64,000 nt of DNA, from positions 248,001-312,000 of the forward strand of contig NZ_PTIX01000005.1 of assembly GCF_002934265.1 (NCBI RefSeq). Reading direction: 5' to 3'. Made by a program: the position numbers and the translations under genes. The notes beneath the pieces were generated by a model. That model was not told the DNA's origin, did not search any database, and was given only the letters and a program-made list of their open reading frames with translations. Shown piece by piece: positions 3,749-63,300 of the stretch; the first letter of the stretch is position 1; each line of letters opens with the position of its first letter. This DNA comes from Actinokineospora auranticolor. Its GTDB lineage: Bacteria; Actinomycetota; Actinomycetes; Mycobacteriales; Pseudonocardiaceae.

Positions 3749-13285
<9,537 letters not shown>

Positions 13286-13402: not shown

Positions 13403-36173
<22,771 letters not shown>

Positions 36174-36190: not shown

Positions 36191-44700
<8,510 letters not shown>

Positions 44701-44704
<4 letters not shown>

Positions 44705-47700
44705 CCGGTGACCAGAACGCCAGTGACGACAAGCTGCTCGGCTACCTGAAGAAGGTCACCGCCGACCTGCACCGCGCCCGCGGCGAACTGGCCGCGAACC
44801 ACGAGCCGATCGCCATCGTCGGCCTGGCCTGCCGGTTCCCCGGCGGGGCCCGGACCCCCGAGGAGTTCTGGGCGCTGCTCGCCGACGGCGTCGACGCCAT
44901 GACCGGCTTCCCCGCCGACCGCGGCTGGGAACCCGCCGACCACGTCCCCGTCGGGGGCTTCCTCGACGGCGTCGGCCACTTCGACGCCGACTTCTTCGGC
45001 ATCTCCCCGCGCGAGGCGCTGGCCATGGACCCGCAGCAGCGGCTGCTGCTGGAGTGCTCCTGGGAGGCGCTGGAACGCGCCGGGATCGACCCGGAGTCGC
45101 TGCGCGGCACCGCCACCGGCGTGTTCGCGGGCACCAACGGGCAGGACTACCCGGACCTGCTGTCGACGGCCGTCGAGGGCGCCGAGGTCAGCGGCCACGC
45201 CGCCACCGGCAACATCGCCTCCGTGCTGTCCGGCCGCGTCGCCTACGCGCTCGGCTTGGAGGGCCCGGCCGTGTCGGTGGACACCGCGTGCTCGTCGTCG
45301 CTGGTCGCGCTGCACTGGGCCGTGCGGTCCCTGCGCGCGGGTGACTGCTCGTTGGCCCTGGTCGGCGGGGTGACCGTGATGTCCACCCCGGCCGTGTTCG
45401 CCGAGTTCGCCCGGCAGGGCGGGTTGGCCGCCGACGGCCGGTGCAAGGCGTTCTCCGACGACGCCGACGGCACCGCCTGGGGCGAGGGCATCGGCGTGCT
45501 CGTCGTGGAACGGCTGTCGGACGCGCGCAGGCACGGGCACGACGTGCTGGCGGTCGTGCGGGGCTCGGCGGTGAACTCCGATGGCGCGTCGAACGGGCTG
45601 ACCGCGCCGAACGGGCCGTCGCAGCAGCGCGTCATCACCCGGGCCCTGGCCGACGCCGGGCTCTCCGCCGACGAGGTCGACGTCGTGGAGGCGCACGGCA
45701 CCGGGACCGTGCTGGGCGACCCCATCGAGGCCCAGGCCCTGCTCGCCACCTACGGCCGCCACCGCACCCGGCCCCTGCTGCTCGGTTCGGTGAAGTCCAA
45801 CATCGGCCACACCCAGGCCGCCGCCGGGGTGGCCGGGGTGATCAAGGTCGTGCTGGCCATGCGGCACGGTTCGGTGCCCGCCACCCTGCACGTCACCGAG
45901 CCCACCTCCCGGGTCGACTGGTCCGCCGGGTCGATCGACCTCGCCGCCACCGCGCGGCCGTGGCCCGCCGACCGGCCGCGCAGGGCCGGGGTGTCGTCGT
46001 TCGGCATCAGCGGTACCAACGCGCACGTCATCCTCGAACAACCCGCCGAGCCCGAGTCGGTCGCCGACACCGACCCCGGCGCCGTGGTCCCGTGGGTGCT
46101 GTCGGCGCGTGGCCCGGAAGCGTTGACAGCGCAGGCCGAAGCGCTCGCGGGCGTGTCCGGCGGGGTCGCGGACATCGGCTGGTCGCTGGCTACCACCCGC
46201 GCCGCGTTGCCCGACCGGGCCGTGGTCGTCGGCGCGGACCTCGACGAACTGCGCGACGGCCTGGCCGCGCCCGCGGTGCGTGGGCGCGCGGCGGGGGAGG
46301 GGCGCGTCGGCGTGCTGTTCTCCGGCCAAGGCGCGCAACGGCCCGGCATGGGAACCCGCCTGGCCGAGCGGTTCCCGGTGTTCGCACGGCACTTCGATGA
46401 GATCCGCGCGCACTTCGACCCGTCCGTGCGGCACGCCATGGAGACCGGCGACGCCCTCGACGACACCGGTCGCGCGCAGCCCGCGCTGTTCGCCTACGAG
46501 GTCGCCCTCTACCGGCTCCTCGAGTCCTGGGGCCTGCGCCCCGAGGTGCTGATCGGCCACTCGGTCGGCGAGATCGCCGCCGCGCACGTCGCGGGTGTCT
46601 GGTCGCTGCCCGACGCCTGCGCCGTGGTAGCCGCGCGCGCCCGGCTGATGGCCGCGTTGCCCGCGGGCGGGGCGATGGTCGCGGTCGAGGCCACCGAGGA
46701 CGAGGTGCGGCCGCTGCTCACCCCCGGGGTGTCGCTGGCGGCGGTGAACGGGCCGCGCGCGGTCGTTGTGTCCGGTGTGGACAGTGAGGTGGAAGCGCTG
46801 GCGGCGCGGTTCGACGGGCGTCGGACCAGGCGGCTGGCGGTCAGCCACGCGTTCCACTCGCCGCTGGTGGAGCCCGCGCTGGCCGAGTTCGCCCGGGTCG
46901 TGCGCGGACTCGACGCGCACGCGCCGACGCTGCCGGTGGTCTCCAACCTCACCGGCGCGGTCGTGGGCGCCGAACTGACCGACCCGGACTACTGGGTCCG
47001 GCACGCCCGCGACACCGTCCGGTTCGCCGACGGCGTGCGGGCCGCGGTCGAGCGCGGCGTGGACGCGTTCGTGGAAATCGGTCCCCGACCCGTGCTCGCG
47101 CCCGCGGCGGGCGCGCTGACCGAGGTCCCGGTCGTGCCGCTGGCCCGGGACGCGCTGACCGAGGACCGCGCGGTGCTTACCGGCGCGGGCGCGCTCTGGA
47201 CGACCGGCGTGCCGATCGACCTGACCGCCGCGTTCGACGGACTCGACCCCCGGCGCGTGCCGCTGCCCACGTACCCGTTCCAGCGCGAGCGGTTCTGGCC
47301 CACCCCCGCCAAGCCCGCGACCGGCGGACGCGACGACCGGCTGTGGGAACTCGTCGCCTGCGAGGACGTCCCGGGTGTCGCGGAGCTGCTCGGCACCGAC
47401 GTCGACCAGCCCGTCGACGGCTTGCCGGGCCTGGTGTCCGTCCTCGGTTCGTGGCGGCGCGGTGTGCACGAGGCGTCGGTCGTGCGGTCCTGCCGCTACG
47501 ACGTCCGCTGGGTGTCGCTGCGCCCCGAACCCGCGACCCCGCGTGGCCTGTGGGCCGTGCTGCGGGAGGACAGCCCGGTGGCCGACGCGCTGCGGGCGGG
47601 TGGCGCCGAGGTCGTGGAGATCGGGATCGGCGCGGGCGTCGACCGGGCCGACCTGGCGGGCCGGGTGTCCGCCGCGCTGGGCGACCGGCTCGGCGAGCTG

Positions 47701-50700
47701 ACCGGCGTCGCGTGCCTGCCCGGCTGGGACGACGACGGCGACGCGGCCGTCGGCGCGCTGTGGGAGCTGGTCGTGGTCACGCAGGGGCTGGCTGACCTCG
47801 GTGTCGACGCGCCGCTGTGGTGCCTGACCCGCGCCGGTGTCGCGGTCGGCGCGGGCGACACCGTCGACTCCCCGGTGGCCGCCGGGCTGTGGGGCCTGGG
47901 TCGGGTCATCGGGCTCGAACGCGGCGCCGCCTGGGGCGGTCTCGTCGACCTGCCCACCGACCCGTCGGACGGGGCGTGGGCGCGGGCAGCGGCCGTGATC
48001 ACCGGGGGCGCCGTCGGGGAACGGGAGATCGCCGTCCGCGCGTCCGGCTCGTTCGGCCGCAGGCTCGTGCCCCACCGGGACACCGGCGAGACCCGCACCG
48101 GCCCCGACCTGACCGGCGCGACCGTCCTGGTCACCGGCGGCACCGGCGCGCTCGGTCGCCGCGCGGCGGACTGGCTCGCCGGGCACGGCGTGGCCCGCGT
48201 GGCGCTGCTCGGCCGCGGCGCCGACACCGCCGAACTCGACCCGCTCCGCGCCCGCCTGGCCGAACGCGGCGCCACCCTCGAGACGCACGTCTGCGACGTC
48301 GCCGACCGCGGCAGGCTGGCGGAGGTCGTCGCCACGCTGCGCGCCTCCGGCCCGCCGCTGCGCGGGGTCCTGCACGCGGCCGGGGTCGTGGCCAACGGGC
48401 TCGTGGTCGACCTGGCGTGGGAGGAGTTCGTCGACGTCGTCCGCGCCAAGGTCATCGGCGGCTGGAACCTGCACGACCTCGCGGGTGAGGTCGACCTGTT
48501 CGTCTGCTTCTCCTCCATCGCCGGGGTCTGGGGCTCCGGCGCGCAAGCCGCCTACGCCGCGGGCAACGCCTTCCTCGACGGCCTCGCCTGCTACCGCGCC
48601 GGGCTCGGCCTGCCCGCCACCTCCGTCGCGTGGGGGCCGTGGGAGGGCGGCGGCATGGTCGCCGGGGCCGAACTGGTCCAGGAACTGCACCGGCGCGGCC
48701 TGGCCCGCATCGCCCCCGGGGTCGCCTTCGCCGCGCTGGACCGGATCACCGCCGGGGGCGAGCCGTGCGCGGTCGTCGCCGACGTCGACTGGTCGCGCCT
48801 CGCACCCGCGTTCGCCGCAGCCGGGATGGCCCGGGCGTTCGCCGAGATCCCCGCCGCCCGCGACGTCGAACCGACCCCGAGCGACACCCCCGTGGCTGGG
48901 CTCGCCGCTGTGCTGCGGCCGCTGCCGGAGGTGGAGCGCGACCGGGTGCTGCTCGACCTCGTCGCCGAGCACGGCGCGCTGGTCCTCGGGCACCGCGACC
49001 GCGGGCGCCTCGACGTCGACCGCCCGTTCCGCGACCTCGGGTTCGACTCGCTGACCGCGGTCGAGTTGCGCAACCGGCTGGTCGCCGCCGCGGGTGTATC
49101 CCTGCCCGCGTCGGTCGTGTTCGACTTCCCGACGCCGCGCGCCCTCGCCGTGGACTTGCGTACGCGCCTGGTCGGCGACGCGGTGCTCCCGGCGACCGAG
49201 GTCGGACCGGTCCTTGTCGACGACGACCCGGTCGTGATCGTCGGCATGGCGTGCAGGCTGCCCGGCGGGGTGTCCACACCGGACGAACTGTGGACGCTCG
49301 TCGCCGATGGGGTCGACGGCATCGGCCCGGCGCCCACCGACCGGGGCTGGCGGCTGGCGGCCGAGGGTGGGTTCGTCGCCGACGCCGACCGCTTCGACGC
49401 GGCGTTCTTCGGGATCTCCCCGCGCGAGGCCCTGGCCATGGACCCGCAGCAGCGGCTCGTGCTGGAGAACACCTGGGAGGCGCTGGAGAACGCGGGCATC
49501 GACCCGGTTTCCCTGCGGCACAGCGACACCGGGGTGTTCGTCGGTGTCACGTACTCCGGCTACCAGGCCGCCGTCGAGGCGTCGGCGGAGGAAGCGGCGC
49601 GCGGCTACGGCCTCACCGGCTCGGCACCCAGCGTTGTCTCGGGTCGTGTCGCCTACGTCCTGGGACTGGAGGGTCCGGCGGTGTCGGTGGACACCGCGTG
49701 CTCGTCCTCCCTGGTCGCCCTGCACTGGGCCGCCCAAGCCCTGCGGCGCGGCGAGTGCTCGCTGGCCCTGGCGGGCGGCGTCACCGTGATGGCGACCCCG
49801 GGCGCGTTCGTCGAGTTCGGCCGCCAGGGCGGCCTGGCACCGGACGGCCGGTGCAAGGCGTTCTCCGCCGACGCCGACGGCACCGGCTGGTCGGAGGGCG
49901 TCGGTTTCGTTGTCGTGGAACGCCTTTCCGACGCCCGTCGACGCGGCCACGAGGTCTTGGCCATCCTCCGCGGCTCCGCCGTCAACTCCGACGGCGCCTC
50001 CAACGGCCTCACCGCCCCCAACGGGCCGTCGCAGGAACGGGTCATCACCCGGGCCCTCGCCGACGCAGGCCTCACACCGTCCGAAGTGGATTCTGTGGAG
50101 GCGCACGGCACGGGCACCCGCCTGGGCGACCCCATCGAGGCCCAGGCCCTGCTCGCCACCTACGGCCAGAACCGCGACCACCCCCTCTGGCTCGGCTCGG
50201 TCAAATCCAACCTGGGCCACACCCAAGCCGCCGCGGGCGTCGCAGGCGTGATCAAGACAATCCAGTCCCTACGCCACGGCCTCCTCCCGAAAACCCTCCA
50301 CACCCCCACCCCCACCACCCACGTCGACTGGTCCCAGGGCCACGTCGCCCTGCTCACCGAACCCCGCGACTGGCCGGACACCGGTCGCCCCCGCCGCGCG
50401 GCCGTGTCCGCCTTCGGCATCAGCGGAACGAACGCCCACGTCATCCTCGAACAGGGCGCCACCCCCACACACCTACCTGCCTCCAGCTCCACGCCCGCCT
50501 CTGCTCCTGCTTCCGCCGCCACCCCCGCCTCTGCTTCCGCACCGATCCCCACCTCCGCGTCCGCCCCGACTCCCGTCCCGGCCTCCACCCCCGCGCAAGA
50601 TCGCGCCGATGTCCGGACTGAGCGGGTCCGCCCGGCCCAGGAGCCGAGCGAACCCGCGAGGGCAGAAGCCGGCCCAGAGCGATCTCGCCGCGTCGGCGAG

Positions 50701-53700
50701 GGGGATGCGGGCGGCGTCGAGTCACCTCGTCCTGGCCAGGCCGAGCCGATCGACGCCGCGCGACCCCGCCTGCCCCGGCGGAGTCGAGGCCGTGGCGCGG
50801 CCGAGGCCCCGCACACACCGTGGGTGTTCTCGGCGCGGGATCCCCGGGCGCTCGCCGCGTTGGCCGCCCGGTTGGCCGCGCCCGCCGCGACCGCGCCCGT
50901 GGCGGGCGTCGGCCGGGCGCTGGCCACCGCCCGGACCGGCCTACCGGTGCGCGCCGTGGTCCTCGGCGACGACCGCGACTCCCTCCTCGACGGGCTCCGC
51001 GCCGTCGCCGACGGTCGCCGCGCCGCCGGGGTGGTCACCGGTACCGCCCCGGCCGACCCGGGGCCGCTCGCCGCCGTCTTCGTCGGTCAAGGTGCCCAGC
51101 GCCCCGGCATGGGCCGTGACCTGCACCGCCGCCACCCCGTGTTCGCCGACGCCTTCGACGAGGTGTGCGCCCAGTTCGACCTGCTGCTCGACCACCCGCT
51201 CCGCGAAGTCGTCTTCGGCGGCGACCGCCTCGACCGGACCGCCCACACCCAGGCCGCGCTCTTCGCGCACGGCGTCGCCCTGTGGCGGCTCGCCGAGTCC
51301 TTCGGCGCGCGCGCCGACTACCTCATCGGCCACTCCGTCGGCGAGCTGACCGCCGCCTACCTGGCGGGCGTGTGGTCGCTGCCGGACGCGTGCGCGTTGA
51401 TCGCCGCGCGCGGCGGGCTCATGCAGGCGCTGCCCGCGGGCGGGGCGATGGTCGCCGTGGAGGCGGCCGAGGACGAGGTACTCCCGCTGCTGCGCGGTCG
51501 TACGGGCCAGGTCGGCATCGCGGCGGTGAACGCGCCGGAGTCGATCGTGCTGTCCGGGGACGAGGACGCCGTCCTCGACATCGCCGCGGCCCTCGCCTCC
51601 GGTGGTCGGCGAACCCGGCGGCTGCCGGTCAGCCACGCCTTCCACTCGCCGCGCATGGACGCCATGGTCGCCGACTTCGCCCGCGTCGCGGCGGGCGTCA
51701 CCTACCACGCCCCGCGCGTCCCGCTGGTGTCGAACCTGACCGGGGCGCTGGTCGACGACGAGCACATCCGGTCGCTGCAGTACTGGGTCTCGCACGTGCG
51801 GCAACCGGTCCGCTTCGCCGACGGCATCGGCCACCTGCTGACCCGCGGCGTCCGGCGGTTCGTGGAGGTCGGGCCGGACACGGTGCTGGCCTCCGCCGTC
51901 CACCGCACCGCCGAGGACCGCGGCGAGACCGCCCGGGTGAGCACCCTGCAACGCGCCGGGCGACCGGAGGACGCGGGCCTGCTCGCCGGGCTCGGCGCCC
52001 TCTACACCGACGGCACCCCGATCGACTGGACCGCGGTGGTCGGCGACGCGCACCCGGTCCCGCTGCCGACGTACCCGTTCCAGCGGGAACGCTTCTGGCT
52101 CACGCCGTTCGCTCAGCCCGTATCCGACCAGGTCGGCGACCACGCGTACGAGATCACCTGGGAACCGCTCACCCGTCACCCGGCGCAGGACCCGCCCGCG
52201 CGGTGGCTTGTGGTCGCGGGGGAGTCCGACGAACTGGCCTCGCGGTTGGTCTCGGTGCTGCCCGACGCGGAACTGGTGTCCGAATGGGACGGTTCTGGGG
52301 CGTCGGGCGGCGTACTGGTGCTTCCCGGTTCGGTGGCGGAACTCGCCGCGTTGGCGCGGTCGGCCGCGTCCGGCCCGGTGTGGTGCCTGACCCGGGACGC
52401 CGTCGACGCGGACGGCGTCGAGGTCGACCCGGCGGCCGCCGCGCTGTGGGGCCTCGGACGGGTCGCGGCGCTGGAGTACCCGCGCTCGTGGGGCGGCTTG
52501 GTCGATGTGACCGGCCCGGTGACCGACGACGTCCTGGCCGCCGTCCGGGACATCGTGTCCGGCGTCTACGGCGAGGACCAGATCGCATTGCGCGGCAACG
52601 AGGTCCTCGGCCGACGACTCGTGCGCGCCAATATTTCCACTGTGGACTGGAAGCCGACCGGGACCGTGCTGGTGACCGGCGGTACCGGCGGTCTCGGCGC
52701 CGCCGTGGCCCGCTGGGCCGCCGCCAACGGCGCCGCGCACCTGTTGCTGCTCAGCCGCTCCGGCGAGTCCGCGGCTCCCGAGCTGCGCGTCGAACTCGCC
52801 GCCCTGGGCGCCACCGCCACCTTCGCCGCCTGCGACGTCGCCGACCGGGACGCTCTCGCCGCCGCACTGGCCACCGTCCCCGTCGACCACCCGCTGACGG
52901 CTGTCGTCCACACCGCGGGCGTCGGTCAGTCCTGTCCCCTGGAATCCATGGACGACACCGAACTCCACCGCGTGCTGACCGCCAAGGTCCGCGGCGCCGA
53001 GAACCTGCACGAACTGACCGGCGACCTCGACGCGTTCGTGCTGTTCTCGTCCATCGCCGCGACCTGGGGCAGCGGCGGCCAAGCCGGGTACGCCGCCGCC
53101 AACGCCCACCTGGACGGCCTCGCCGCCCGCCGCGCCGCGCTCGGCCTCCCCGCCACCGCCATCGCCTGGGGCCCTTGGGACGGGGCGGGCCTCGCCGTCG
53201 CCGAGGGCCGCGCCGATCAACTGGCCCGCCGCGGCCTACCGCTCATGGACCCCGCCCTGGCCCTCGCAGGCATGGCCCGCCTGGTCGGCTCCGGCACCCC
53301 CACCACCACCTTCGCCGAAGTCGACTGGACCCGGTTCGCACCGCCCTTCACCGCCCTGCGCCCCAGCACCCTGTTCGACGCCCTACCCGAGACCCGCCCG
53401 GACTCCGCCGTCCGACTCGACCCCCCCAGCCGCGCCGCGCTCCTTGACCTGGTACGCACCGAGGCCGCGCGAGTCGTCGACGGTGACCCGGCCGACCCGG
53501 TCGTCCAGCTTGAGGCTGATGGCCGCGCGGCGATTCTCGAACTCGTTCGCGCCGAGACCGCCCAAGCCCTCGGCCTCGCCTGCCCTGACGCGACCGAACC
53601 CGCCAGCGACCTCGAGTCCTCCAGCCGTGCTGCGATTCTCGCCTTGGTGCGCGTTGAGGCAATGCGAGCCGCCAATGACCACCCGGCCGGTCGTGACGCG

Positions 53701-54291
53701 AGTGCCGACCCGGTAGCCCGCCTCGCACCCGCCGCCCGTACCGCCATTCTCGACCTTGTGTGCGCCGAGGTCGCCTCGCTGCTCGGTCTTGCCGTCCCCG
53801 AAGCCCACCCGGTCGAGCCCACTGTCCGATTCGGACCCGCCAGCCGTGCTGCCGTCCTCGACCTGGTGCGGGTCGAGGCCGCCCGAGTGCTCGGCTTCGG
53901 CGGTCCCGTCGACGTGCCCGCCACCCGCGCGTTGAAGGACCTCGGTTTCGACTCGCTCACCGCGGTCGAACTGCGTGACGCCCTCACCTCCGCCACCGGC
54001 GTCGCGCTGCCCGCCACCCTCGTCTTCGACCACCCGACCCCGACCGCCCTGGCCGACCACCTCTTCCGGCTACTCGACGGCATCGCCGTCTCCGGCCTGC
54101 TGGGCGACCTCGACCGCGTGGGCGCCGCCTTGGCCGACCTGTCCGCCACCGACCGCCTCGCCGTCGAGCGGCGGTTGCGGGGGTTGGTGGCGGCCGTCAC
54201 CGGTCAGGCCGTCGAGGAGGGCCCGGCCGACCTGTCCGAGGCCAGTGACGACGACCTCTTCGACCTGCTCGACGGCGAGTTCGGGCGCTGA
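44701..54291 (+). CDS. PKS-5, two-module type I polyketide synthase with repeated ACP-helix segments
   Basis: 3196 residues. The GTG at 44701 overlaps the stop of PKS-4 by four bases. The frame stays open upstream but codes PKS-4 in another frame there, and only from 44701 does a docking helix ([15 protein letters not shown]) appear. Module 5a is KS (from 36, Cys 197), AT (from 537, GHSVG Ser 621, HAFH), KR (from 1145, Trp 1277, Tyr 1285) and ACP (Ser 1450). Module 5b is KS (from 1508, Cys 1667), a 119-residue Pro/Ala/Ser-rich insertion (1921-2039), AT (from 2123, GHSVG Ser 2212, HAFH), KR (from 2659, Trp 2789, Tyr 2797), then five tandem copies of the ACP helix-I segment (2910-3065), then ACP (Ser 3085). 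The docking tail ends [13 protein letters not shown]. Both modules should add malonyl and make L-type hydroxyls. The two insertions make 5b clearly longer than an ordinary KS-AT-KR-ACP module such as 4a. Confidence 0.96.
44806..49170 (+). other. Module 5a: KS-AT(malonyl)-KR(A-type)-ACP
   Basis: KS DTACSSS (Cys 197); AT GHSVG plus [14 protein letters not shown], no LDD (it reads VVANG), Trp 1277 in AGVWGS, Tyr 1285 followed by AAGN, so A-type; ACP GFDS. Predicted unit: CH2 with an L-hydroxyl. Confidence 0.85.
50461..50817 (+). repeat. Low-complexity insertion in the KS-AT linker of module 5b
   Basis: Residues 1921-2039. The first 45 or so are Ala/Ser/Pro/Thr with recurring TPAS and APAS steps. 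The rest is rich in Arg, Glu, Pro and Gly, with no domain I recognise. The KS-AT linkers of neighbouring modules lack this segment. It is predicted to be disordered. Confidence 0.75.
53428..53930 (+). repeat. Five tandem copies of an ACP helix-I segment ahead of ACP 5b
   Basis: Copies start at 53428, 53521, 53623, 53734 and 53842, spaced 93, 102, 111 and 108 bases (31-37 residues). Each has the pattern R-x-A-x-L-x-L-V-[RC]-x-E-x-[AM], for example [13 protein letters not shown]. The last copy is the true first helix of the ACP and runs into GFDS. The first four end in divergent, non-ACP linkers. These copies use more A/T-ending codons (ATT, CTT, GTT) than the flanking domains. Confidence 0.85.
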
Positions 54292-54316: not shown

Positions 54317-57300
54317 GTGAGCGTTGAGCAGAAACTGCGCGACTACCTCAAGCGCGCGACGACCGACCTGCGCGAGGCCAACCGCCGGGTGCGCGAGTTG
54401 GAGGACCGGCGGGAGGAGCCCGTGGCCATCGTCGGCATGGCCTGCCGCTACCCGGGCGCCGCCGACCCGGAGGCGCTGTGGGAGCTGCTGCTCGCCGAGA
54501 CCGACGCGGTCGGCCCGGTGCCCGCGGACCGGGGCTGGGACCTGGCGGAGTTGGCCGCGGCGGGCGCGGTCCCCGTCGGCGGCTTCCTCGACGACGTCGC
54601 GGGTTTCGACGCCGGGCTCTTCGGCATCTCACCGCGCGAGGCGCTGGCCATGGACCCCCAGCAGCGGTTGCTGCTGGAGTGCGCGTGGGCGGCGTTGGAG
54701 TCGGCGGGGCTCGACCCGACGGGGCTGGCCGGTTCGGACACGGGGGTGTTCGTCGGGACCAGCGGGCAGGACTACCCGGCACTGCTGGCGGCGTCGGGGG
54801 ACGTGGCGGAGGTCGCCGGTCACATCGCCACGGGGACGTTGGCGTCCGTGCTCTCGGGTCGGGTCGCGTACGTGCTCGGCTTGGAGGGGCCGGCGCTGTC
54901 GGTGGACACGGCCTGTTCGTCGTCGCTGGTCGCGCTGCACCAGGCGGTCCAGTCGCTGCGGCGGGGGGAGTGCTCGGCGGCCCTGGTCGGCGGGGTGACG
55001 GTGATGTCGACGCCGGGGGCGTTCCTGGAGTTCGGTCGTCAGGGCACTTTGGCCGCCGACGGCCGCTGCAAGCCCTTCGCCGAGGGCGCCGACGGCATCG
55101 CGTGGGCGGAGGGCGTCGGCGTCCTGGTCGTCCAGCGCCTGTCCGACGCCCGCCGCGCGGGCCGCCCCGTCCTGGCCACGGTCCTCGGCTCCGCCGTGAA
55201 CTCCGACGGCGCCTCCAACGGCCTGACCGCCCCCAACGGCCCGTCACAGCAACGGGTCATCACCCGGGCACTCGCGGACGCCGGGCTGTCTTCGTCCGAT
55301 GTGGACTTCGTCGAAGCGCACGGCACCGGGACCGCGCTGGGCGACCCGATCGAGGCGCAGGCCCTCCTGGCGACCTACGGCCAGGACCGCGACCGGTCCC
55401 TCTGGCTCGGCTCGGTGAAGTCGAACATCGGCCACTCCCAGGCGGCGGCCGGCCTCGCGGGCGTGATCAAGACCGTCTTCGCCCTGCGCGAGGCGCAACT
55501 CCCCGCGACCCTCCACGCCACCCAACCCACCACCCGGGTCGACTGGAGTTCGGGCGCGGTGGAACTGGTGCGGGAGCGGCGGGCGTGGCCCGAGGTCGAC
55601 CGACCGCGCCGGGCGGCGGTGTCGTCGTTCGGGGTCAGCGGGACGAACGCGCACGTGATCCTGGAACAGGGGGACGCGGCGGAGGTCGTCGAGTCCGAAG
55701 AGGTCGAGGTGGTGCCGTTGGTGCTGTCGGCGGCCTCGGAGGAGGCGCTGCGCGAGTACGCCGCACGGCTGAGGGGTATGCCTCCGGCCCCCGATATCGA
55801 TGCTACCGGGCAGCACCGACAGAACCCGAACAAGACGATCAAGCCTGTGGACAACTCGACCCCGGAAGACCGCGGGGCGACCGCTACCGCGAGTGGTGCG
55901 CGGGAAATGGCAGGTGGGAACGCGGGCGGTGGTGTGGTTTCCGGGGTGTCGGGGGCCGATCACGGGAGCCGGACCGTTGCGTCGTGGGTGGGCCGTGCGG
56001 GCCAGGAGGATCACGACGTGGAGCCGGGGGCGACCGCTATGGCTCTTGGTGCGCGGGAAGCGGTAGCGGGGAATGTCGGGGGCGGTGCGGTTTCCGGGGT
56101 GTCGGGAGCAGACCTCGGGAGTCCGACGTCCGCACGCCGCGCGGGTGGGATCTCGGTTGCCGATCTCGGGTTCTCGCTCGCCACGACGCGGGCGCGGTTG
56201 GGGTATCGGGCGGTGGTGGTCGGGCTCGGTGCCGCTGGGCTCGACGTCGTTGCCGCGGGCACCTTGAGGGACGGGGTCGTCGAGGGCGTCGCGGACCTCG
56301 ACGGGCGGGTCGTGTTCGTCTTCCCCGGGCAGGGTGCCCAGTGGATCGGCATGGCGCGGGAGCTCCTCGACACCTCCCCGGTCTTCGCCGCCCGCATCCG
56401 CGACTGCGAGGCCGCCCTGGCCCCGCACGTCGACTTCTCCCTGACCGCCGCCCTGCGCGGCGGCCCGGACGCGCCGTCGCTGGAGCGGGTGGACGTCGTG
56501 CAGCCCGCGCTGTTCGCGGTGATGGTCGCGCTGGCCGCCCTGTGGGCCGCGCACGGCGTCCACCCGGACGCGGTGATCGGGCACTCCCAGGGCGAGATCG
56601 CCGCCGCGCACGTCGCCGGGGCGTTGTCGCTGGCCGACGCCGCGAAGGTCGTCGCGGTGCGCAGCCGCGAGCTGACCGTCCTGCACGGCACCGGCGGCAT
56701 GGCGTCCGTGCGCCTCCCGCTGGCCGACGTCGAGGCCGACCTGGCCGACGTGCCCGGCGTGTCCGTGGCCGCGATCAACGGCGCGTCGTCGATCGTCGTG
56801 GCGGGTGACCCGGCCGGGCTCGACGAACTCCAGGCCCGCTGGGACGCCCGCGACATCCGCAACCGCCGGATTCCCGTGGACTACGCCTCCCACTCGCCGC
56901 AGGTCGAGGCCATCCAGGACCGCCTGCGCGCCGAACTCGCCGACATCACACCCGGCCGCGCCACCACCCCGTTCCACTCCACGGTCACCGGCACCACCCT
57001 CGACGGCCCCGAACTCGACGGCGCGTACTGGTACCGCAACCTGCGCCAGGTAGTCCGCTTCGAACCGGTGGTCGAGTCGCTGCTGGACGCGGGCCACGAC
57101 ACCTTCGTCGAACTCAGCCCCCAGCCCGTGCTCACCATGGCCGTCCAGGAAACCATCGACGCCAAGGACGCCCGCGCCGTCACCACCGGCACCCTCCGCC
57201 GCGACGACGGCGGCTACCGCCGGTTCCTCACCTCCGCCGCCGAGATCCACGTCCGCGGCGCCACCGTCGACTGGACCCCCGCGTTCCCCAAGGCGACCGC

Positions 57301-60300
57301 CATCCCGCTGCCGACGTACCCGTTCCGGCACCGCCGCTTCTGGCCGACCCCCGCCACCGCCCGCCAGGACGCGACCGCACTCGGCCTCACCCCCCTCACC
57401 GACCACGCCATCCTCGGCGCAGCGGTCCCACTCGCGGGCGGCGGCCACGTGCTGTCCGGCCGAGTCTCACTCGCCACCCACCCGTGGCTCGCCGACCACA
57501 CCGTCGGCGGCACGGTGGTCTACCCCGGCACCGGCTTCGTCGACCTCGCCCTCCGCGCAGGCGACATCCTCGCCCGCGACGCGATCGCCGACCTCACCCT
57601 GGTAGCACCCCTCCTCCTCCCGGAGACAGGCGCCACCCGCCTCCAGGTCACCCTCGATGGCGACACCATCACCATCCACTCCCACCCCGAGGACGCGGAC
57701 CCCCACACCCCCTGGACCCTCCACGCCACCGGCACCCTGGCCGAGTCAACACTCGCCGCCCTCCCGACCCAACCAGCGGACGCGTCCCAACCGGAGACCC
57801 TCTCCGCAATGTCCACGCTGGACTCATCCTCGGGAACTGCTTCGGTCGCCGCGACCGGCGCCATCGGAACTCTCGCCGAGTCCACGGCGGAGTCGAAGCT
57901 GGCCGCCGCCCATCCGGTCGAACCGGCTGACACATCCCGACTCAAAGCGTCCACACTGGACTATCCGCCGCGAGAAGTGTCGATCGACGCCCCCGATCGC
58001 CGGGCCGGTTCCGCGCCCGACTCGTCGTCCCGTGGCCAAGAGGTTGCCGAGCGCTCTGTTGGCTCCGCGGTTCCGTTTGCTCCTCGGCCTCCTGAGGACG
58101 CCCGCGCGCTCGACACCACAGCCTCACGGCCGCGGGGTGCTTCGCCCGGCGCCCCCGATCACCACGCCGGTGCCACATCTGACTTGTCGCCTCGTGATCC
58201 TGAGGTCGTCGAGCACTCCGCTGGCACCCCAGCTCCTTTCGCGTCGGGGCCTCCCGAGAACGTGCCCCCGCCCGATGCCGCGGGTCGCCGGGCCGGTTCC
58301 GACTCGTCGTCTCGTGGCCGTGGTGCCGTCCAGCACCCCCTCGCCTCCGCGCCGTGGCCTCCCGCGAATGCCTGCCCGCTCGACACCACCGACTTCTACG
58401 CCGGCCTAGCCGCCGCGGGCCTCGCCTACGGCCCCCTCTTCCGCGGCCTCACCGCCGCCTGGACCCACGACGACTCCCTCTACCTCGACGTCACCCTCCC
58501 CGACGCCGCCGCCCGCGCCCACCACGTCCTCCACCCCGCCCTCCTCGACGCCGCCCTCCAGGGCATCGCCCTCGCCGCTGACGGCCCCGCCCGCGTCCCC
58601 TTCTCCTTCGACGGCGTCACCCTGCACGCCACCGGCGCGAGCCGCCTCCGCGTCCGGCTCACCCCCACCACCCCCGACGCCGTCGAGCTCACCGCCGTCG
58701 ACGACACCGGCGCCCCGGTCCTCACCATCGCCGCCGTGAGCCTCCGCCCCGTCGACCCGGCGGCGTTCACGGCCACCGCCGAGCCGCTCCTCGAGCCCCG
58801 GTGGACCCCGGTCGAGCTACCGGTCGCCGAGCACGCGTCCGACGCGCGTGTCCTCACCGTCACCGGCGGCGACCCGAGGGTCCAGCTCCACAAGACGTTG
58901 GCCGCCATCCACGACACCCTCTCCGGTGATGGCAGGCTCGTCGTCCGCACCACCACGCGGGACATCGCGTCCGCCGCTGTCCTCGGGCTCGTGCGCTCGG
59001 CCGCGACCGAGAACCCCGGCCGGATCGTCGCGGTCGACTCGGACGCGGAGTCGTCGCACCTGCTGCCCGCCGCCCTCGCCTCCGGGCTGCCCGAGGTCGC
59101 GCTGCGCGGGGGGACCGCCCACGTCCGGCGGCTGGTCCGGCTCGCGGGGGCGCCGGGGAAACGGCCGATCAAGGACGGCACCGTGCTGATCACCGGCGGC
59201 ACCGGGCACCTCGGCGGCCTGCTCGCCCAGCACCTGCGCACCCGCCACGGCGTCCGGGACGTGCTCCTGCTCAGCCGCACCGGCCGCGCCCCGAACACCG
59301 AACCGGGCGTGCGCGCCCTGGCCTGCGACGTCACCGACCGCGGCGCGCTCGCCGCCGCCATCGCCGACGCCGGACCGATCGCCGCCGTCTTCCACGCGGC
59401 CGGGGTGCTGGACGACGCCGTCGTCACCGGCCTCACCCCCGACCGCGTCGACCACGTCCTCTCCGCCAAGCTCGACGCCGCCCAGTGGCTGCACGAGCTG
59501 ACGCTGCCCCACGACCCCAGCCACTTCGTGCTGTTCTCGTCCGTGGCGGGTCTCCTCGGCAGCGCCGGGCAGGGCAACCACGCCGCCGCCAACGCCGCAC
59601 TCGACGCGTTCGCCGAGTACCGGCACAGCCTCGGCCTGCCCGCGACCTCACTCGCCTGGGGACCCTGGGAGGGCGGCAAAGTAGGCGCGCTCACCACCAC
59701 CGACACCGCCCGCATGGCCCGCTCCGGCCTGCGACTGCTCACCGCCACCAGCGGCATGGCCCTGCTCGACACCGCGCTGGACAGCGACCGCCCCATCCTG
59801 GCCCCCGTCCTCGTCGGCGGCCCCGCCACCATCCCCGACCAGGTCCCACCCCTCCTGCGCGGCCTCATCGGCACCCCCCGCCGCCAAGCGCGGACCGCGG
59901 ACACCCCCAAACCGAACGACCTGGCGGCGACCCTCGCCGCACTCCCCGAAGACGAACGCCACACCACCCTGACCGACATCGTCCGCCGCCAGGTGGCGGC
60001 CGTCCTCGGCCACGACTCGATCCGCGAGATAGGCCACCGCCGCACCTTCAAGGACCTCGGCTTCGACTCCCTCACGGCGGTGGACCTCCGCAACCGCCTG
60101 GCCACGACCACCGGCCTGCGCCTGCGCGCCTCCCTGGTCTTCGACTACCCGGACGTCACCACGCTCACCGCGCACCTCCTCAAGAACCTGACCCGATCCG
60201 CCGCCGACCCCACTCGCGCCACTCGTGGCCGCACCGCCGAACCCGCGCACGCTGCCGGCTCCGCCGGGGCCACCCGCTCCGTCGATGCCGCGCACGCTAC

Positions 60301-63300
60301 CGATTCCGTCGGGTCCGGCCGCATTGGCGATGCCGCCCGCGCTGCCGGCTCCGCCGGGGCGACCCGCTCCGTCGATGCCGCGCACGCTGCCGGCTCTGCT
60401 GGGGCCACCCACTCCGCCGATGCCGCCCGCGTTGCCGGCTCCGCCGGGGCCACCCACTCCGCCGACGCCGCAGACGCTGCCAGCTCTGCTGGGTCCGGCC
60501 ACTCCGTCGATGCCGCGCACGCTACCGATTCCGTCGGGTCCGGCCGCATTGGCGATGCCGCCCGCGCTGCCGGCTCCGCTGGGTCCGGCCACTCCGCTGG
60601 GCCTGTCCGCACTGTCGACCCCTCTGGACTCGGCAGTCCCGCCGCTCCTACCGAGCCCGGCCGCGCAGCCGAGTTCGCAGGCACCACCCAATCCGCCGAG
60701 CCCAGCCTCGTCGCCAACCCCGCCTGGCATGGCCGCACCGCCCAGCCCGCGCGCGTCGCCGACTCCGCCGAGCCCACCCGCACCGCCGACCCCGCTCCGA
60801 ACCCCGCGCAGCCCAACGAGCCCGCCGAGGCCAAGCTCACCCAGGCCACCCGGCCCCACACCTCGTCCCCGGCCGCCGATTTCGGGCAGCCGCCAGCCGA
60901 GCAGCCCGGGGAGCCCCCGGTTTTCCATTCTACCGCGCAGGACCGACGAAACGGGCAGGTCAGCGAGCCGCCTGTGGATAACTCCCCAGGGGCGATCGCG
61001 ATTGTCGGGATGGCGTGTCGGTTCCCCGGTGGGGTCGACTCGCCTGCCGCGTTGTGGGAGTTGGTCGAGGCGGAGGTCGACGCGATCGGGCCGTTCCCGA
61101 GCGACCGGGGGTGGGCCGCCACCGACGGGCTCGGTGGGTTCGTGCACACCGCCGCCGAGTTCGACGCCGAGTTCTTCGGGATCTCTCCCCGTGAGGCCAC
61201 CGCGATGGACCCGCAGCAGCGGTGGTTGCTGGAGTGCACCTGGGAGGCGTTGGAGCGGGCCGGGGTCGACCCGCACGGGTTGCGGGACAGCGATGCCGGG
61301 GTGTTCGCCGGTCTGTCCCACTCGGTGTACCAATCCGCCGGGGGAGGGCTGGGGGAGGCCAGTGGCTTCGCCGTCACCGGGACGTCGCCGAGTGTCGCCT
61401 CCGGCCGCATCGCCTACGTGCTCGGCACCCAAGGTCCCACGATGTCGGTCGACACCGCCTGCTCCTCCTCCCTCGTCGCCCTCCACCTCGCCGTGCGGGC
61501 GCTGCGGGCGGGCGAGTGCGGGCTGGCCATCGTCGGCGGCGTCGCGGTGATGGCCACCGACGGCCTGTTCGCCGAGTTCGAGATGCAGGGCGGACTCGCC
61601 GCTGACGGGCGGTGCAAGGCGTTCGCCGACGCGGCCGACGGCACCAGTTGGGGTGAGGGCGCCGGTGTGCTGGTCGTGGAACGCCTCGAGGACGCCCACC
61701 GCGCCGGGCACGAGGTGCTGGCCGTCATCCGCGGCAGCGCCGTCAACTCCGACGGCACCTCCAACGGCCTCACCGCCCCCAACGGCCCCTCCCAGGAACG
61801 GGTCATCACCCGGGCCCTCGCCGACGCGGACCTCGCACCGTCCGAAGTGGACGCGGTCGAGGCGCACGGTACGGGCACCCGGCTGGGCGACCCGATCGAG
61901 GCGCAGGCCATCCTCGCCACCTACGGCCAGGACCGCGACCGCCCCCTCTGGCTCGGCTCGGTGAAGTCCAACATCGGCCACACCCAGGCCGCCGCGGGCA
62001 TGGCCGGGCTGATCAAACTCGTCGAGTCCCTGCGTCACGGCACCCTCCCCAGGACGCTGCACGTCGACCGCCCCTCCACCCACGTCGACTGGACCGAAGG
62101 CGCCGTCGAGATCCTCACCGAGACCCGCCCCTGGCCCGCCACCGGACGTCCGCGCCGCGCCGCCATCTCGGCCTTCGGCATCGGCGGCACCAACGCCCAC
62201 GTCATCCTCGAACACACCCCGACCCAACCCCCAACCCCCGCGGACCACGCCGAACCGGTGCCCCTGGTCCTCTCCGCCCGCACTCCCGCGGCCCTGAGCG
62301 ACCAAGCGCGCGCCCTCAAAGAAACCCTTGCCAAGCAACAAAACTGGAACCGCACCGCAGTCGCGCACCGCATCACCACCACCCGCGCCCGCTTCGACCA
62401 CCGAGCCGTCGTCCTCGCGAACGACAACGAATCCGTCCTGGACGGTCTCGCCGCCATAGCGGCGGGCGCACCGGAAATCCACGGCACGGCCCGCCCCGGT
62501 GCCCGACCGGTCTTCGTCTTCCCCGGCCAAGGCTCGCAATGGCCCGCCATGGCCGTGGAGCTCATGGCGCGCCCGGTCTTCCGCGCCGCCATCGAGGACT
62601 GCGCCACCGAGATCGACCGGTTCACCGACTGGTCCCTCCTCGACACCCTCACCCGCGCCGAACCCCTCGACCGCGTCGACGTCGTGCAACCCGCCCTCTT
62701 CGCCGTCATGGTCGCCCTCGCCCGCCTCTGGCGCGCCCACGGCGTCACCCCGGGCGCCGTGATCGGCCACTCCCAGGGCGAGATCGCCGCCGCGCACGTC
62801 GCGGGCGCCCTGTCCCTGCGCGACGCGGCCAAGGTCGTCACACGTCGATCCCAGGCCCTGCGCGCGCTCAGCGGTCAAGGCGGCATGGTGTCGGTCACCC
62901 TCTCGGCGGCCCGCGTCGAGGAACTCCTCACCGCCGGGCTCTCGGTAGCCGCGACAAATGGTCCACAATCGACAGTCGTGTCCGGTGACGCCGAAGCCAT
63001 CACCGCGTTCCTCGCCGAGTGCGAGAAACGAGACGTGCGGGCGAAACGCGTCCCCGTCGACTACGCCTCGCACTCCGCGCACGTCGAACGCATCCACAGC
63101 GAGCTTCTGACCACTTTGGACGACATCCGACCCCGAACCGGCGACATCCCCTTCTACTCGACCGTTCGCGGTCGCCGAATCGACACCGCCGAACTGACCA
63201 CGGCCTACTGGTACGACAACCTCCGCCTCCCCGTCCGCTTCGACGAGGTCGTGCGCGCCCTCCTCGACCGCGACCACAACGTCTTCCTGGAGATGAGCCC

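Follow-up and report, generated by a model that had tools for sequence, protein, structure and literature searches.

A post-KR segment of the LLRGLVR type followed by helix I of the acyl carrier protein (ACP) is typical of DH-KR modules in polyketide synthases (PKSs). In PUFA synthases it is whole ACP domains that are repeated, according to one report (PMC3585217). For DEBS, another study describes helix I as carrying the epitope for ACP-to-next-KS translocation, with its N-terminal ten residues mattering and Glu23 of ACP4 in contact (PMC3962154). The locus analysed here repeats a smaller piece, helix I with its surroundings, in front of a single ACP. Among the matches listed by literature searches on tandem repeats, helix I, ACPs and PKSs, no title or opening of an abstract mentioned such an array.

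The window, that is, the whole stretch of 64,000 nucleotides analysed (G000:C5:248001-312000 in its own genome), holds part of a large cis-AT type I PKS cluster. In the second module of ORF D, five in-frame units stand between the KR and the module's only ACP, which confirms the arrangement described in an earlier note on this DNA. The span given there, 53428-53930, was correct to within about ten codons, and the full units occupy 53404-53919. The features are as follows.

44698..54291, + strand: ORF D, bimodular type I PKS subunit, KS-AT-KR-ACP twice plus a C-terminal docking region, from the frame and motif positions (the GTG start at 44698 and the docking label are our reading; the stop is at 54291)
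53404..53499, + strand: unit 1, extra helix I copy (block repeat; PSSM rank 13 of 19,965)
53500..53604, + strand: unit 2, extra helix I copy (block repeat; PSSM rank 14)
53605..53712, + strand: unit 3, extra copy, the most diverged (block repeat; PSSM rank 50)
53713..53820, + strand: unit 4, extra copy (block repeat; PSSM rank 15)
53821..53919, + strand: unit 5, the genuine helix I of the ACP (block repeat; PSSM; aligned to the single helix I of the sister genome G002)
53944..53958, + strand: GFDSL phosphopantetheine site of the second module's only ACP (motif; Pfam PP-binding, 52.1 bits)

A repeat search recovered a 75-nt block in five copies, starting at 53405, 53498, 53600, 53711 and 53819; the spacings (93, 102, 111 and 108 nt) are all multiples of 3, and all five units are translated in the one open frame of ORF D. 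The GFDS core is joined to the fifth unit only, as had been noted before, and Pfam finds one PP-binding domain in 53230-54288. The remainder of the module is normal by motif, its ACP is normal by Pfam and fold, and each other module of the cluster for which the linker was printed has a single helix I. Tandem Repeats Finder (TRF), a program of the kind proposed earlier as a check, gave no row for the array even at a score of 30, although the repeat search finds five copies. The genome is a draft of 61 contigs, a state in which an assembly artefact might be suspected, but a false join would yield near-identical copies, whereas the other four copies are 63-76% identical to the reference copy (24-37% of positions differ), and the array lies inside a 447,560-base contig with its frame intact; we regard an artefact as scarcely credible.

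To compare the units with known helix I segments, a PSSM was made from 29 such segments of the cluster, its flanks and the G002 counterpart, with the array module and its ortholog excluded, and was scored over 19,965 18-mers from five PKS frames of the window. The top 12 18-mers were all helix I segments of ACPs, unit 5 included, and one of them, checked separately, precedes a GVTS core; 10 of these 12 were in the training set, so that their lead over the held-out units is partly built in. Directly under them came units 1, 2 and 4 at ranks 13, 14 and 15 (scores 17.4, 14.7 and 11.3; next non-unit 18-mer, 8.5), and unit 3 stood at rank 50 with a score of -1.1, which shuffles of its own residues reach with p about 0.002. 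The first four units therefore score above shuffled and background 18-mers against the helix I of other modules, and are not simply the random Ala-rich helices that the earlier note had named as the alternative. On these scores units 1, 2 and 4 are clear helix I copies, and unit 3 is backed mainly by its register with the others. Sequence comparison agrees with the former description of the units as helix I with the preceding linker and extends it, each unit comprising pre-helix linker, helix I and the start of loop I. When a higher-order (AB)(AB)A arrangement was considered, protein scores favoured same-parity pairs (60, 84, 73 and 49 versus 54, 54, 46, 56, 24 and 64), and DNA scores did not clearly do so. 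Elsewhere in the window, at about 25673 in ORF B, an ACP core reads GVTSM in place of GFDSL.

The genome G002, from the same genus, has a collinear cluster: the window from 1002 to past its end corresponds to G002:C9:600026-679993 in large blocks of 74-80% DNA identity (blastn). Its orthologous module reads ...FDGIAGAETTTAPEPAGDGRFLRELSALAGAARRTAVLDLVRAEVAAVLGFAGPADVPAARAFQEMGFDS..., with a normal linker, one helix I (RTAVLDLVRAEVAAVLGF) and one ACP. The KR and ACP matches lie 456 nt apart in the window and 84 nt apart in G002, giving 124 extra residues in the window, and the copy number of the repeat is five versus one, with one genome per species. The core DNA of the units is 0.53-0.76 identical to the G002 helix, a value that, for each unit, none of the 29 other helix I DNAs reaches; the lead is 0.02 in units 2, 3 and 5 and 0.04 in unit 1, and it is largest, 0.11, in unit 4, which retains three G002 helix I residues absent from unit 5. 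Because the DNA of each unit is closest to the G002 helix, by margins of 0.02-0.04 except in unit 4, the array most likely grew from the helix of its own module. When the ACP and C-terminal part served as a protein query against 390 genomes of the family, G002 matched at 71%, and the rest, besides the window, at 57% or less among the matches listed; with one ortholog found, the choice between gain in the window lineage and loss in G002 rests on parsimony.

The same comparison bears on whether the units descend from five tandem whole ACPs whose cores have since been deleted. Each unit begins like an ACP, and the sister genome does have tandem whole ACPs at another locus (L019). Tandem ACPs, however, would carry a GxDS serine and a PP-binding domain in every unit, and here there is one GFDS and one PP-binding match, with neither a GxDS motif nor a second match between the units; the sister ortholog has one ACP, and the scheme requires four parallel deletions to similar lengths. 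This makes a degenerate ACP series very improbable. Locus L019 itself (G002:C10:3640-6858) belongs to another PKS of the sister genome and has at least three tandem whole ACPs.

We also aligned the six collinear PKS frames of both genomes and recorded gap runs of at least 12 aa, with the first 150 and last 30 columns excluded. A misaligned ORF B stretch (1489 versus 1111 + 413 aa, where blastn shows continuous collinearity) and the pre-start frames (six window runs at 43438-44551 and one G002 run of 75 aa) were set aside. There remained 16 window-only runs at six sites, summing to 800 aa, and two G002-only runs, of 12 and 18 aa. The array is one of the six sites, five of which lie in ORFs D and E.

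24608..24707, + strand: window-only insertion in an ORF B linker, 33 aa, GC3 0.76 (two-genome alignment)
about 50456..50817, + strand: window-only insertion in the KS-AT linker of the array's module, low GC3, with two gap runs of 23 and 83 aa that span 50470-50815 (alignment)
53383-53833, + strand: the array as a gap site, window-only runs (two-genome alignment)
55793..56159, + strand: window-only linker insertion in ORF E, 122 aa, with a 101-nt direct repeat at 78% (alignment and repeat search)
57788..58349, + strand: window-only insertion in an ORF E linker, with four gap runs (46, 54, 39 and 35 aa) and diverged direct repeats (alignment and repeat search)
60191..60995, + strand: window-only insertion in a post-ACP linker of ORF E, with four gap runs (162, 36, 17 and 34 aa; alignment)

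The KS-AT insertion is Pro/Ala/Ser-rich and measures 362 nt in the window versus about 41 nt in G002. Within the post-ACP insertion of ORF E, absent from G002, lies a 45-nt tandem repeat of about 8 copies (~60229-60597), and other sites carry 101-nt and 53-nt direct repeats. GC3 is 0.62-0.79 in 14 of the 16 runs (0.92 and 1.00 in the remaining two), compared with 0.91-0.94 over the six whole frames, except the ORF D frame at 0.86, which includes pre-start sequence (0.92 from the start codon). Within ORF D, the 25 lowest of 314 60-codon windows (GC3 0.72-0.82; gene mean 0.92) all overlap or adjoin the array or the KS-AT insertion. By these alignments the array belongs to a group of linker expansions seen only in the window, lacking at the orthologous site of the one sister genome compared and accompanied by other insertions. 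The claim rests on the protein alignments rather than on TRF counts or a low-GC3 scan: TRF returned 8 rows in the 144-kb window cluster versus 6 in the 80-kb G002 cluster, 0-5 in four other PKS regions of the own genome and 0-5 in five control stretches, which does not mark the cluster as repeat-rich, and the scan, which includes out-of-frame and pre-start artefacts, found 22 low-GC3 stretches in the window cluster versus 3 in that of G002 and 0-6 in other PKS regions of both genomes.

In our judgement the likely explanation is that tandem duplication took place as part of linker growth specific to this lineage, leaving a longer, helix-rich tether on a normal ACP. A segment of ~100 nt, running from the linker before the ACP through helix I to the middle of loop I, would have been duplicated repeatedly and in frame within one module, after the split from the sister species as judged from the comparison and parsimony, and presumably by slippage or unequal crossover. 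This duplication would have belonged to a broader growth of interdomain linkers in the same PKS. Its product would be a KR-ACP tether lengthened by 124 residues with four extra helix I-like helices, the ACP being intact with its own helix I (unit 5), and its effect is most likely that of a longer, helix-punctuated spacer of near-neutral consequence. Three observations sit less easily with this account. The core nucleotide difference between units, 25-47%, is as great as that between the two species in the flanks, and third-position identity between units is just 0.41-0.65, whereas copies from a recent burst would be expected to look younger, unless this segment evolves rapidly; the TRF counts do not single out the cluster as rich in repeats; and the conservation of the helix cores leaves room for a selected role.

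This conservation was assessed by codon position. In the 17-residue cores, identity between units at codon positions 1 and 2 exceeded that at position 3 by 0.218 (permutation p = 0.0027), but the eight pre-helix codons gave no such difference (p = 0.54). Core dN/dS, the comparison among units proposed earlier, was 0.20-0.81 in ten non-independent unit pairs, and Glu at core position 11 is present in five of five units, encoded by GAG each time. The former statement that the copies have diverged yet kept their pattern is supported, the cores being conserved above their silent sites. In this short alignment there is moderate evidence that the helices are constrained and the linkers are not. The constraint would probably be purifying selection that keeps the cores short, soluble and helical rather than selection preserving a recognition function.

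A recognition function would be expected if units 1-4 were a selected array of decoys or epitopes, mimicking helix I and modulating how the ACP docks with its own module or with the KS of ORF E. The core conservation and the invariant Glu are what such an array might show, and in a low-confidence model most of the ten DEBS-type positions would fall within the conserved core in units 1, 4 and 5. Against this, unit 3 has drifted furthest, and the helix I motif is absent from the printed inserted residues of the other five window-only expansion sites; because linkers grew in parallel without helix I, the decoy reading is unnecessary. A free helix I, without helices II and III, is also not known to fold or dock, which counts against a decoy. 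We consider such an array unlikely, and no more favourable a view can be taken of its extension, an unlikely intramolecular docking competitor or ladder in which detached helix I copies would time elongation against chain hand-over to the next subunit.

Structure prediction bears on a different role, in which units 1-4 would pack into a four-helix bundle, by themselves or across the PKS dimer, and position the ACP. AlphaFold2, run with 12 window sequences on a stretch that included the array and the ACP, predicted helices at residues 32-50, 57-80, 94-115, 134-151 and 170-188 of that stretch, one per unit, and the four extra helices could in principle pack. For units 1, 4 and 5 this low-confidence model starts the helix three residues ahead of the conserved core, and for units 2 and 3 earlier. 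Block pLDDT was 40-73 in the array, as opposed to 93-98 in the ACP core, with a pTM of 0.42; from a single sequence, the array alone gave five helices with a mean pLDDT of 44.6, a pTM of 0.25 and no confident packing. Core hydrophobic moments were 0.04-0.20, not above shuffles in any unit, and the same held for the G002 ortholog as for unit 5. Best Foldseek matches were PKS ACPs covering the ACP part (top, 7vrs_C, the salinomycin module 9 ACP), and a sequence search of the PDB found no solved relative of the array at E up to 1. A bundle or dimer element is, on this evidence, quite unlikely. Of what the earlier note had proposed for the array, the copying of a small DNA piece and the longer tether stand; a decoy, docking-competition or dimer-bundle role is not supported, the array being one of six expansion sites with no confident packing and with cores that are not strongly amphipathic.

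Similar arrays were sought by profile searches with two-unit alignments: A1, partly misregistered by MAFFT, on 390 family genomes, and A2 on 394 class genomes and on 333 genomes of one genus of the class. The own genome was counted in the family and class searches, and scoring was limited to 14-17 candidates per genome. Among the profile matches listed, adjacent units occurred in the own genome only. The 14 loci opened from the class search besides the window's own comprised 13 PKS modules with one helix I and one locus without a PKS (a further match, L012, was already among the loci brought in by another search), and none of the 25 loci opened from the single-genus search was an array. Among the 101 non-redundant ACPs with a helix I score of at least 8 in the loci examined, that of the window has the sole helix-I-only array. 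A contig search for relatives of the array protein confirmed none of 427 stretches, and tblastn of the array against plasmids gave nothing at E 0.01. A contig search for a DNA pattern of two DLVR motifs 90-120 nt apart returned 55 loci, 12 of them flagged with an ACP core; all 12 (L042, L048, L051, L056, L063, L071, L073, L078, L082, L084, L089 and L091) were rejected as a KR end plus one helix I. The silence of this pattern says little, since it would miss the window's own array, which uses GTA, GTT and TGC codons. The array is likely absent elsewhere, judging from these sequence searches, and the possibility raised before, that it is common in unrelated PKSs, found no second example among the PKS loci opened.

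Two other loci seen in this work have repeats of their own. In L083 (Mycobacterium sp. M26), an apparent in-frame internal duplication of ~35-40 residues lies around the pattern match at 6873-6995, in a frame that we take to be thiamine-phosphate-synthase-like. L061, from a Myxococcales MAG, has from base 45 a short-period repeat of the ELLDLVRLDE type in an open frame, unrelated to PKSs as far as it was read.

The array seems less a new device than an expanded linker that the enzyme tolerates. Provided that the pathway is active, one ACP tether has gained 124 residues and a second linker about 250, with the PKS frames still open. The cluster would then be a natural experiment on the linker change that an assembly line tolerates, with the collinear, unexpanded sister pathway as its control, and such tolerance is a practical question for PKS engineering. 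The array also shows that duplication can act on a fragment of a carrier domain and need not take in the whole.

Set beside known systems, the array is closest in its parts to helix I of cis-AT modular PKS ACPs, which its units match residue by residue, and the ACP behind the array can be superposed on those of PKSs; in contrast to them, four of the array's units are without helix II, helix III and the Ser. The post-KR LLRGLVR-type segment with helix I resembles two units ~30-40 aa apart, and both the pattern and the profile searches returned it, but its first element is the KR end and it has a single helix I. Tandem ACP arrays of PUFA synthases and some PKSs have in common with the array their tandem in-frame copies in the carrier region, whereas the array repeats only the first third of the domain and has one Ser. 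Although its unit contains a helix and its copies have diverged and were missed by TRF, the array shares with in-frame minisatellite-like linker expansion units that are multiples of 3 nt and absence from the sister, and a 45-nt example of such expansion lies ~6 kb downstream.
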